From assembly GCF_018687785.1 (NCBI RefSeq), contig NZ_LTBL01000001.1:248001-312000 (forward strand): a stretch of 64,000 bases of DNA. Reading direction: 5' to 3'. The translations under genes were made by a program, and so were the position numbers. Under the pieces are notes generated by a model. That model was not told where the DNA came from. It saw only the letters and a list, made by a program, of their open reading frames with translations, and did not search any database. Shown here piece by piece: positions 51,423 to 56,016 of this stretch (within the stretch, counting starts at the first letter, position 1; every line of letters begins with the position of its first letter). The stretch comes from Methanovulcanius yangii. GTDB lineage: Archaea > Halobacteriota > Methanomicrobia > Methanomicrobiales > Methanomicrobiaceae.

Positions 51423-52196
51423 TCACCCGTCAATAGTCATGCCTTTGTCATGCAATTCTGATTTCATTCGGTTTATTCCGGTGGAAAGGGCTGAAAACGC
51501 TTCTTCCCTATGCCGTGCAATGACTGCAATATAGGTTATGTCCTCTCCGGGATAGAGGATGCCGGTCTGATGTCGGACAGCGGCCCCAAGTATTCCCGGA
51601 ATGGATTCCATATGTTCCTGTACATTGGCACAGAGGTTATGAATTGCATACTCATCGGGAAAATCGAGAAATTCCGTGCGTGTATCGTCGGTGAATTCCC
51701 GTACAATCCCATTGAAGGAGGCAATGCATCCCGCCTCGGACATGGGACACCTGCGCCGCAGTTCGTGGATGCACCCCTGCATCGAATAATAGTCGGCAAA
51801 GAATTCCATTGATGCACTGACATCATCCACGGATGGATTCCGGAGCACGGCGTTGTCGATTTCAAGGTTGCCAATGACGACCTTGGGGTATGCATAGGTC
51901 TTGTGCCCCTCGATAATTACATATTCCACTCCCATATCGCTGAGCAGGCGAAGTTGTCCGGGGAGATCCCCGCTACGTATAGCAACAACTGCTTTTTCCG
52001 GGTCGATGCCGGAGACAACGTCGGCCCCGTGTTCATAATGTGTCGTGGTATCTTTCCCTTCTTCAAGCGAATAGAGGTGGGAATGAAGGTGTTTTATCAC
52101 CGCGGTGGTACCGAGATTACTGAGGGCGGGGAGAAGTTTGTGGATAAAGGTGGTCTTTCCGCTGTTGTGACCACCGACAACATGGATGATTTTCAT
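51423..52196 (-). CDS. MobB-MoaE-like fusion protein
   Basis: This 257-residue protein joins two molybdopterin-synthesis modules. Residues about 1-130 are MobB-like: Walker A VVGGHNSGKTTFIHKL, VIKHLHSHLYSLEEGKDTTTHYEHGADVV and EYVIIEGHKTYAYPKVVIG. Residues 145-257 resemble MoaE, the large subunit of molybdopterin synthase: AGCIASFNGIVREF and AVRHQTGILYPGEDITYIAVIARHREEAFSAL. However, the usual C-terminal lysine-rich end (PIWKKE type) is missing: the protein ends SELHDKGMTIDG. It may scaffold MPT synthase rather than catalyse. It overlaps the upstream DUF5806-like gene by 4 bp. Confidence 0.82.
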   Translation of the reverse strand: MKIIHVVGGHNSGKTTFIHKLLPALSNLGTTAVIKHLHSHLYSLEEGKDTTTHYEHGADVVSGIDPEKAVVAIRSGDLPGQLRLLSDMGVEYVIIEGHKTYAYPKVVIGNLEIDNAVLRNPSVDDVSASMEFFADYYSMQGCIHELRRRCPMSEAGCIASFNGIVREFTDDTRTEFLDFPDEYAIHNLCANVQEHMESIPGILGAAVRHQTGILYPGEDITYIAVIARHREEAFSALSTGINRMKSELHDKGMTIDG

Positions 52197-53170
52197 GTTT
52201 CGTCCTCTTCTGTATCGGAGCCTTTGTTTTCAGGCGGTTCATGATCTTCGCTTCTGATTCTCGATGCTGCTTCGGCAACCCCCCGCATCACCTCGGTGAT
52301 GCGATCCTCGATATCGATCTCATCATCGATATCGATGGAAGTACCCTCGACTTCCAGGAGGAAACGGGCCACCTCGCTCGCCTCAAAGAGGATGTCGTCC
52401 AGTTCATCGGCAGTAAAAAATCCGCACAGGGCGCCGTAAAAGAAGGTGGCTCCTGACTTGCGCACTTTTTTCTTAAAGGATGACCGTGCCTGATTGACAG
52501 CCTGTGGGGAGTAGGTATCTGTCATGAAAGGGACAAGATCTGGCAGATTTTCCCCGATGAAGGTCATTTCAGCACCTCCTCGTGTACTAAAATCTGCACA
52601 AAGCCTGGCGATTGCCCACTCCCGTGCAGTGACGTAGGTGTGTTTTCGCAGGAACTGGTTGACCCGGCGGTAGGCCGCTCCGTCGACTTTCTGAAATTTG
52701 CGGTATTTGTTGATCCTTTCTTCATCCTCGGGAGAGAGGGAGGGGCGTCCCGGCATCAATACGGGCTGGGTGGGATCGATGCCGAGGATCATCTGTGTGG
52801 AGGAGATAGGTATATTCACCTGCGGTATATGGGGTAGTTCTTCATCTTCGTCGGGGCTATCTCCTTGGAATGAATCAGGGGGTAAATGAGGTTCTAATGC
52901 CGTATCTGCCCCCTCTGAATCATCAAATTCCGGAGATCCGGAGGTAGGGATGGAAGAGGGTTCATCCATGGGGGGGGTGGGGGGCGGTGTGGTGGTTTCT
53001 CTCCCGTACTCCTGTTCAGGTGTCATGGTGAATGGGTGCTCCTGGCAATCATCAGCGTCATTCCGGGATGGTGAGGGAAGTATTGAATCGGAGCCATCAT
53101 ATCCTTCATGACTGCGATTACCGGACAATTCGTCATCTGATTTGGAAATTTCCGTCCTGTTTTCCTCCAT
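52193..53170 (-). CDS. DUF5806-like protein with long acidic, proline-rich N-terminus
   Basis: This 325-residue protein has an N-terminal 150 residues rich in acidic residues, Ser and Pro (TTTPPPTPPMDEPSSIPTSG), probably disordered. The C-terminal half is conserved-looking: INKYRKFQKVDGAAYRRVNQ, THVTAREWAIARLCADF-like (here KHTYVTAREWAIARLCADF), GENLPDLVPFMTDTYSPQAV and FYGALCGFFTADELDDILFE. I recall a haloarchaeal family of unknown function (DUF5806) with very similar phrases. No catalytic motif is visible; a helical DNA- or protein-binding role is possible. Its stop overlaps the MobB-MoaE start. Confidence 0.7.
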   Translation of the reverse strand: MEENRTEISKSDDELSGNRSHEGYDGSDSILPSPSRNDADDCQEHPFTMTPEQEYGRETTTPPPTPPMDEPSSIPTSGSPEFDDSEGADTALEPHLPPDSFQGDSPDEDEELPHIPQVNIPISSTQMILGIDPTQPVLMPGRPSLSPEDEERINKYRKFQKVDGAAYRRVNQFLRKHTYVTAREWAIARLCADFSTRGGAEMTFIGENLPDLVPFMTDTYSPQAVNQARSSFKKKVRKSGATFFYGALCGFFTADELDDILFEASEVARFLLEVEGTSIDIDDEIDIEDRITEVMRGVAEAASRIRSEDHEPPENKGSDTEEDET

Positions 53171-53778
53171 TATGGTTAATATGAGTCGGATACGTTCATC
53201 AACCTTACTGGAATTTGTCCTTTGAATTCTGCCTATGGATGAATCTTCATATAGTTTATTCCCGGCAGAAGAGAGGCTGAAGACCCATCGAAGACGGTTG
53301 GGGGGTCATATTTCATATTCTGAATTGAGCCATCGAATTTCAGATAAACCAAAGCGGTGGTTGTGTGGCTGATCCATCCTCACCCCCCTTACCTGCGAAC
53401 GACCTGCATTCAATGACGATATAAGTCATGGAAGATTCGGGGTATCATGACAAATTCTTCTGGGGATTGGGATTTCAGGGTTTGATCCTCTCATTGCTCT
53501 GATATCCGGAAAGTCATTGATGATTGCGCAATTCACATCTGAATTCTGCGATGGCGATGCCGTTTTTCATTATTCGCTTGAATATCTTAATAACTCACAA
53601 AAAAGGCGTAATTCAGGATTATTTTGAATAATTAAGAATTGCAGATCTCCAGGTTCCGACATCTCTGCTATGTATAGCATCATATGGTTTATTTGAATAT
53701 TGTCCAAAGGGGGACTTATGGTGAAATGGGCCACGATGCTCATCATTGAAGTGAAATAAGGCTATATCCTTTGATTAA

Positions 53779-54726: not shown

Positions 54727-54754
54727 TTTGCGCAGAATAGAGATTCTGCGCAAA
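54727..54754. repeat. Perfect 28-bp palindrome, candidate dif-like or Xer-binding site
   Basis: The arms TTTGCGCAGAAT (54727-54738) and ATTCTGCGCAAA (54743-54754) are perfect reverse complements around AGAG. Read as 11 + 6 + 11 bp it has exactly the size of a Xer dif site, and TTTGCGCAGAA agrees at 8 of 11 positions with the XerC arm of Escherichia coli dif (GGTGCGCATAA, from memory). It ends 18 bp before the start codon of a Xer-type recombinase. It could instead be an operator for that gene. A T-run precedes it rather than follows it on the plus strand, so it is not a normal terminator. Confidence 0.5.
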
Positions 54755-54772: not shown

Positions 54773-55705
54773 ATGAAAAAAATAAGCATGGAGGGCGATT
54801 ATTTCTCAGAGTGGCTTCCGCGCTTCTCTCATCACCTGAAAATGAGAAATTATTCGCCCCGTACAATCGCGAGTTATGAGCGGGTTATCAGGAAATTCGG
54901 CTATTATCTTTGGATTCGTCGGAACAAGGGTCCGGAGAAACTCGTCATATACTGGAAGGACCTTGCCCATGCAAGGATGGATACGGAAGTGGACGCAACA
55001 GCGATTCAGATTGATGATTTCCTGGGATTTATGACTTCTATCAGGGATTACAAGGCCACAACGCTGCATCGGATCATTTCGTCACTCTCTTCATTTTACC
55101 GGTATCTCTATGCTCAGGGAGTGATCGAGGCAAACCCCCTTGCTGCGGTGGACCGGCCGAGAATCAAAGAGAAGGAGATCAAATATCTCAAGCATAATCA
55201 GGTGATGAGGCTTATTGAATCGATTCCTGAGGATAATTCGCGGGATAGGTTGATAATCAGGCTTATTTATGCCACTGGTGTCCGTGTCTCGGAATTGTGT
55301 TCCATGGACATTGGAGATATTGATTTCGAAGATAATACAATCCGTGTACGGGGAAAAGGGGGTAAAATTCGGGTTGTTTTTGTTGATGAGGATACTTTGG
55401 AGGAAATCGACAATTTCTCGGCAGGCCGGATTGCCGGTCCGCTTTTTGTCGGACAATTGGGTCATGCGATTTCCCCGCGGACTGTGCAGCATATCTTTAA
55501 AAAATGGGCTCCTGAAGGAATTACGCCTCATAAAATCCGTCATTCCTATGCAAGTGAATTATACAAGCGATCGAAAAATCTCCGTGTCGTCCAGGAGAAC
55601 CTCGGACATTCCTCCATACAGACCACTGAGATTTATCTCCATACTGATGTGGATGAACGTCGTGAAGTATACCGCAAACATTTCCCTCTTGGAAACGGGA
55701 AATAG
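54773..55705 (+). CDS. xerA: Xer-type tyrosine recombinase
   Basis: This 310-residue protein has an N-terminal core-binding SAM-like domain (FSHHLKMRNYSPRTIASYERVIRKF) and the full tyrosine-recombinase catalytic set: Arg171 (TGVRVSEL), Lys195 (GKGGKIRVV), His253 and Arg256 (HKIRHSYAS), His279 (LGHSSIQTT) and Tyr288 (EIYLHTD). The size and lack of extra domains fit XerA, which resolves chromosome dimers in archaea, better than a typical virus integrase. GGTGAGCA precedes the ATG; an in-frame ATG five codons on would be leaderless from the GTTTATAC element. The neighbourhood is gene-poor and AT-rich, so a mobile-element integrase is not excluded. Confidence 0.85.
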   Translation: MKKISMEGDYFSEWLPRFSHHLKMRNYSPRTIASYERVIRKFGYYLWIRRNKGPEKLVIYWKDLAHARMDTEVDATAIQIDDFLGFMTSIRDYKATTLHRIISSLSSFYRYLYAQGVIEANPLAAVDRPRIKEKEIKYLKHNQVMRLIESIPEDNSRDRLIIRLIYATGVRVSELCSMDIGDIDFEDNTIRVRGKGGKIRVVFVDEDTLEEIDNFSAGRIAGPLFVGQLGHAISPRTVQHIFKKWAPEGITPHKIRHSYASELYKRSKNLRVVQENLGHSSIQTTEIYLHTDVDERREVYRKHFPLGNGK

Positions 55706-56016
55706 CCAAAATTACTCTCTTTTTTTCTGATTGATACTGAAATGAGCTGATTTTCCTCAGATTGTTCGTAGATTTATTGCCTGTGGTATTTACCAATAAA
55801 CCGTATGATGCTATAAATGCGGGACGTTTTGCGGCATCTTTGCTGATTGATATATCTGTGCATGGAGGTGGACGAGGAGGATGGCTCTGAAAGCATCATA
55901 TGGTATATTGAATTCAGTGGATCTCAGTAGGGGGAGAAAATGAAGACGGGCTGGTAAAGGGATTTGGGCATAGCCTCCTCCTGAAAAATTGAGAAAAAGA
56001 AGGGAATGAATCCGTT
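55706..56016. other. Gene-free stretch downstream of xerA
   Basis: These 311 bases separate the Xer gene from the converging nspC gene. Apart from the T-tract near 55717 I see only very short open frames (about 20 codons near 55860-55945, one behind a GAGGAGG) and A/G-rich sequence near the nspC end. No motif or RNA gene is recognisable. Confidence 0.6.
55717..55728 (+). terminator. T-tract terminator of xerA
   Basis: CTCTTTTTTTCTG follows the xerA stop by about a dozen bases. A run of seven thymines within a pyrimidine-rich context is typical of archaeal termination. No strong hairpin is needed or seen. Confidence 0.5.

Follow-up and report, generated by a model that had tools for sequence, protein, structure and literature searches.

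What is the function of the long palindrome that stands in front of a Xer-type recombinase gene in Methanovulcanius yangii? A sequence-only reading had offered it as a candidate archaeal dif site or other Xer target. Here, we consider the palindrome within the window, by which we mean the whole 64,000-nucleotide stretch of DNA that was analysed, within its own genome and among related archaea.

The palindrome, xerA and the promoter between them

The palindrome is read directly from the window as TTTGCGCAGAAT-AGAG-ATTCTGCGCAAA, spanning 28 bp at positions 54727–54754, and the two 12-bp arms around AGAG that had been described are borne out at the same coordinates. It is the sole perfect inverted repeat with 12-bp arms in the window when gaps of 0–10 are scanned. 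Twenty shuffles produced one such repeat over the 11 gap sizes, which corresponds to ~0.0045 in 64 kb for any one fixed gap, in agreement with the earlier estimate of 0.004 per 64 kb. In the whole 2.29-Mb genome, the palindrome occurs once, with up to three mismatches allowed.

The total length of 28 bp fits the 11-6-11 geometry of dif, as the sequence-only reading had pointed out. The borders of arms and core were set by comparison with Escherichia coli dif, the reference sequence of which was verified by its presence in 5,384 of 5,426 E. coli genomes. Divided in this way, the site and E. coli dif have 18 of 28 positions in common on the better strand, a level that random perfect palindromes reach with p ~2–4 × 10−4, and the count of 8 of 11 positions shared between its left arm and the E. 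coli XerC arm is likewise correct. The features at the site are as follows:

54727–54737, left arm of the proposed dif site, TTTGCGCAGAA
54738–54743, core of the proposed dif site, TAGAGA
54744–54754, right arm of the proposed dif site, TTCTGCGCAAA
54758–54763, + strand, putative TATA box (TTTATA) of the xerA promoter, from the sequence and the same arrangement before orthologues
54773, + strand, ATG, alternative upstream start of xerA
54788–55705, + strand, xerA, tyrosine recombinase (NF040815; PF00589; P. abyssi XerA, 4a8e), start set by comparison of orthologues

The product of the gene scores 277.6 bits for NCBIfam NF040815 (recomb_XerA_Arch; cut-off 220), which makes it a XerA equivalog, and it matches PF00589. 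In alignment with Pyrococcus abyssi XerA (4a8e), all six catalytic residues (R-K-H-R-H-Y) that had been claimed for it are in register. The distance of 18 bp first given between the palindrome and the gene is right when counted from ATG 54773, but orthologues share a later start, ATG 54788. With this start, the palindrome is placed directly upstream of the TATA box, at a distance of 3 bp, and the transcript of xerA, judged from its sequence, is probably leaderless. Divergent from xerA, at 52193–53170 of the window (− strand), is a gene for a DUF5806 protein; this gene, a MobB-like gene and a phosphoglucosamine mutase-like gene form a group across dif from xerA, and do so in a second genome, G193, too.

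Conservation of the site in Methanomicrobiales

Of the 232 genomes of the order, 192 have XerA; among the 135 of good quality, 128 do. The same palindrome is found upstream of xerA in each family of the order that was examined (named records behind the genus names are those of Methanogenium, Methanomicrobium, Methanospirillum, Methanofollis and Methanoregulaceae); outside the order but in the same phylum, the search for it gave background-level matches only. In genus g19, which has its own version of the arms, the site occurs once per genome in 16 of 16 genomes, and where two copies are seen, in G193 and in G195, they are the two ends of an insert (see below). Since the palindrome is neither missing at orthologous xerA genes nor repeated many times on the chromosome, its reading as a dif site or Xer target holds. 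It is strengthened by the covariation with XerA, by the genera in which the intact palindrome is apart from the promoter and by an element inserted exactly at the orthologous site (see below).

The two arms vary jointly, being TGCGCAGAAT in most genera, TGCGCATAAT in g17 and TGCGGGGAAT/ATTTACCGCA in g19, and the g17 sites match E. coli dif at 21–22 of 28 positions. The spacer is variable; its first base, in the direction of xerA, is always a purine, and none of the 24 kinds is self-complementary, an absence that taken alone is weak evidence (p ~0.21 for 24 distinct cores). A chance palindrome or a functionless RNA hairpin, in favour of which it can be said only that short inverted repeats occur, is refuted already by the conservation of the palindrome, with compensatory changes, at orthologous loci. 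It is opposed too by the low expected frequency given above and by the position upstream of the TATA box, which should keep the palindrome out of transcripts from the xerA promoter; we give this explanation practically no credence.

Covariation with the arms singles out one residue of the recombinase. The normalised mutual information between XerA residues and the outer two bases of the arms peaks, among 196 variable alignment columns, at residue 235, the H in SPRTVQ-H-IFKKW (permutation p ~1 × 10−4, with phylogeny partly controlled by thinning to 75–90% identity). Arms with GCG-CA go with H or Y at this residue, those with GCG-AA mostly with L or M, and those with GCG-AC with R. Residue 235 sits in the dif-binding helix of XerA, next after the PRT triplet. 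Cortez et al. name the triplet at this position as the dif-binding motif and give the XRX type for XerC (PMC2958812); PRT belongs to the XRX type, in keeping with the resemblance of the arms to the XerC arm. XerA is on these grounds the likely binder of the palindrome.

In five genera, g32, g33, g37, g39 and g40, a conserved RNA-like gene also has a dif-like palindrome with a nearly fixed core (TATT) in front of its TATA box. Examples, each to be taken together with the ~350 bp downstream of it, are the following:

L149:5296–5319, palindrome at the RNA-like gene
L150:4444–4467, palindrome at the RNA-like gene
L151:4855–4878, palindrome at the RNA-like gene
L152:3285–3308, palindrome at the RNA-like gene

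The RNA-like gene, which is probably non-coding, sits near a tRNA gene and in some genomes near trkH too, and it has no Rfam match. Its palindrome is possibly a second XerA target or a member of a XerA regulon.

The spacing between the palindrome and xerA bears on whether recombination is involved at all. In nearly all genera, the 24-bp core pattern stops exactly 35 bp ahead of the start codon of xerA, and so fixed a distance is in favour of the site being an operator only, at which a dimeric regulator, XerA or another, controls xerA without recombination. The related palindrome at the RNA-like gene, in the same position before a TATA box, points the same way, as does the arrangement in g16 and g35, where the intact palindrome has moved to 0.6–1.2 kb upstream of xerA and the promoter retains the right half only (ATTCTGCGCAA plus TATA). 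The last two genera nevertheless also speak against an operator alone, because an intact palindrome detached from the promoter must be kept for some other reason than the promoter. Moreover, the spacing from palindrome to start codon varies from 44 to 52 bp in g17, the sequence and geometry are those of dif, and virus-like elements are inserted precisely at the core (see below). We therefore regard an operator without recombination as very unlikely. As a second role of the same palindrome, autoregulation of xerA is probable, given that most genera keep the palindrome at one set distance from the TATA box. The half-site ATTCTGCGCAA has four further copies in the M. yangii genome, none followed by an obvious TATA box, and thus no wider regulon is seen there.

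The position of the site on the chromosome was assessed from GC skew, computed for forty 20-kb stretches of the M. yangii genome and the window. The skew minimum is at orc1 (1.70 Mb) and the maximum near 0.60 Mb. At 0.303 Mb, the site lies 139° from the origin, taken as orc1 and the skew minimum, and ~47° (0.3 Mb) off the skew maximum; GC skew, to which the sequence-only reading had looked as a check, thus does not place the site at the maximum. In 12 of the 13 genera with closed genomes, the median site angle exceeds 90°, from which it follows that the site is usually distal to the origin yet not at the terminus. The dif of Sulfolobus has been reported outside fork-fusion zones. For Thermococcales, Cortez et al. 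give dif sites at 122–142° from the origin (PMC2958812), a range that includes the angle found here. Most closed genomes of the order have a second Orc1/Cdc6 gene (G000:C1 209,201–210,247) at a distance of ~40–110 kb from xerA; it is at the other, main Orc1 gene that the skew minimum of the M. yangii genome falls.

Weighing this evidence, we conclude that the palindrome is very probably the XerA recombination site, that is dif, of its own chromosome. Among the points against this conclusion are the offset from the skew maximum; the similar palindrome at the RNA-like gene of five genera; and the fixed position before the TATA box, since a pure recombination site needs no such fixed spacing. The arrangement suggests that the palindrome serves in the first place as dif, and that in most genera it has a part in controlling xerA as well.

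Elements inserted in the site and motifs around it

Independent natural evidence that the orthologous site has recombined comes from genus g34. In G193, an element of 8,466 bp lies exactly within the palindrome, and G194, a closed genome and close relative, has an intact xerA locus with an empty site. The xerA-proximal junction in G193 consists of the element left arm ACCTCAGAA, the core TGTCTA and the chromosomal right arm; the distal junction consists of the chromosomal left arm, the same core TGTCTA and the element right arm. The DNA neighbouring the insert is 90–95% identical to that of G194 by BLAST. For the left flank, the valid figure is 90% over 3.3 kb by gapped BLAST, an ungapped comparison of 200 bp giving only 57% because of an indel. 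G195 has a related element of 8,697 bp with the core TAGGTA common to both junctions, and the two elements have their gene order in common. A similar foreign left arm stands beside xerA at a contig edge in G173, possibly a third g34 genome with an element. The virus-like elements of 8.5–8.7 kb located in dif are at:

L142:3534–12023, virus-like element in dif
L144:3503–12223, virus-like element in dif

Both elements encode a packaging-ATPase-like protein (phrog_2666; weak match to the STIV B204 ATPase), and no recombinase family was matched by those of their proteins that were scanned. They also carry a zinc-finger/membrane protein and conserved small proteins without an assigned family. Relatives of a 159-aa candidate coat protein are confined, among the 232 genomes, to G193 and G195. 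The viral_contigs set contains no exact match to the site or to the joined site of the elements, with no free form found, and relatives of the packaging ATPase are absent from viral_contigs and phages. A capsid label is not claimed for the candidate coat proteins, one predicted structure having a pLDDT of 38 and another, at pLDDT 65, being a modest beta-sandwich with weak, mixed matches.

With dif-like junctions at dif, no detectable recombinase of their own and a known empty site, the elements look as IMEXs, which are integrated by host Xer recombination, do in bacteria. The same logic of insertion revealed the dif site of Legionella through LME-1 (PMC9765430). This appears to be the first archaeal virus-like element to integrate by way of the host dif system; a search of the literature on archaeal IMEXs and XerA gave only a review and no earlier case.

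A sharply bounded, polar motif of 20 bp, RTATAGCATCATATGGTTTAT (130 instances), emerged when the surroundings of related loci were compared, and copies of it stand on both sides of the site in the window:

53674–53692, + strand, left flanking motif ATAGCATCATATGGTTTAT, directed towards dif, the centre of which is 1.06 kb away
55796–55814, − strand, right flanking motif with 1 mismatch, directed towards dif, the centre of which is 1.06 kb away
55890–55908, + strand, extra, weaker copy with 2 mismatches, 94 bp beyond the right motif

The motif is present in 53 of 55 sampled genomes of the order, mostly in 1–4 copies per genome at up to two mismatches. In 37 of the 55, dif lies between a + copy to its left and a − copy to its right whichever way xerA runs, the median distances being 1.4 and 1.1 kb (for a few genomes, the start of xerA stood in for the position of dif); away from dif, these genomes have hardly any copies of the motif. 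The g16 pair encloses dif and leaves xerA outside, and that of G193 remains outside the inserted element. A weaker second copy ~93–94 bp beyond one flank recurs in several family members. In other orders, 16 of 240 genomes have one or two copies, mostly weaker ones. In two of these 16, from other families of the phylum and probably haloarchaea, a version of the motif (L261:1501–1519 and L262:1501–1519) stands within 0.5 kb of a XerA-like gene. As far as we have found, a convergent motif around dif has not been reported previously.

The elements raise the further question of whether the palindrome is a XerA site mainly for the integration and excision of mobile DNA, with chromosome dimers resolved elsewhere or otherwise. 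The elements that two or three g34 genomes carry at the orthologous site would be in keeping with this, as would the distance of the M. yangii site from the GC-skew maximum. Such elements are present, however, in only 2 of 232 genomes, whereas the site and xerA are kept vertically in nearly all good genomes, and the flanking motifs are kept where there is no element. This explanation is accordingly most improbable in our judgement.

Returning to the palindrome as chromosomal dif, we envisage that two XerA monomers would occupy the two 11-bp arms, that two such sites would synapse and that strands would be exchanged across the 6-bp core TAGAGA. As the only asymmetric part, the core would set the direction. 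As at the dif of bacteria and Thermococcales, the purpose would be to convert chromosome dimers to monomers. Bound beside the TATA box, XerA may also tune its own transcription, and a partner that replaces FtsK/KOPS in controlling or directing the reaction could bind the convergent 20-bp motifs. Conserved flanks and inverted repeats at Thermococcales dif led Cortez et al. to suggest a partner protein (PMC2958812), and we propose by analogy the same role, at longer distance, for the motifs described here. A more inclusive scheme, which we advance tentatively and think rather more likely to fail than to hold in full, is that of a composite locus, in which dif would be the promoter switch of xerA, the 20-bp pair would recruit or orient a partner (a translocase, or a fork-stopping or bridging protein) as FtsK/KOPS does for XerCD, and XerA would regulate the RNA-like gene in five genera.

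Relation to known dif systems

The analysis provides a precisely defined and very probable dif site for the whole order Methanomicrobiales and a candidate specificity residue in XerA residue 235. The flanking pair offers a handle on the missing partner and on how archaea control XerA recombination without FtsK, and the locus bears on dimer resolution in such archaea and on the source of XerA directionality.

The nearest counterpart is XerA/dif of Thermococcales, described in Pyrococcus abyssi (Cortez et al. 2010, PMC2958812). Those sites are similarly of 28 bp, 11-6-11, with near-perfect arms and in one copy; they share 14–18 of 28 positions with bacterial dif, are alike in their angle from the origin and have conserved flanking sequences with a possible partner, and the system has a single recombinase and no FtsK. 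In contrast, Thermococcales dif does not adjoin xerA, and the site described here lies in the xerA promoter and has another arm sequence; the flanking motif here is 0.5–10 kb away and converges on dif.

A single recombinase with its site beside the gene is found also in the xerA-linked dif of Sulfolobales (PMC2958812) and in bacterial difSL/XerS and difH/XerH (PMC5357621). In the same source, difSL is 31 bp long with an 11-bp centre, unlike the 28-bp site here, difH has other arms and distant recombinases, and both bacterial systems depend on FtsK (PMC5357621). Overlap with the TATA region and convergent flanks are not described for Sulfolobales dif, difSL or difH in the available parts of PMC2958812 and PMC5357621.

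The similarity to XerCD/dif of E. coli extends to the g17 arm, which is identical to the XerC arm, to 18–22 of 28 positions in common and to a triplet of XerC's type. The two systems differ in that one recombinase and two like arms are found here, whereas XerC and XerD act there on unlike arms, at a dif site that is at the terminus and controlled by FtsK. Finally, the elements resemble the IMEX-type LME-1 (PMC9765430), in which a dif mimic is carried on the mobile element, host Xer inserts it at dif and two dif-like junctions result; here, the host is an archaeon and the element a small, virus-like one with a packaging-ATPase-like gene. Overall, we regard the locus as a known kind of dif site in a new arrangement, that of the xerA promoter with convergent flanks, and with insertions that give natural evidence for its use by mobile elements.
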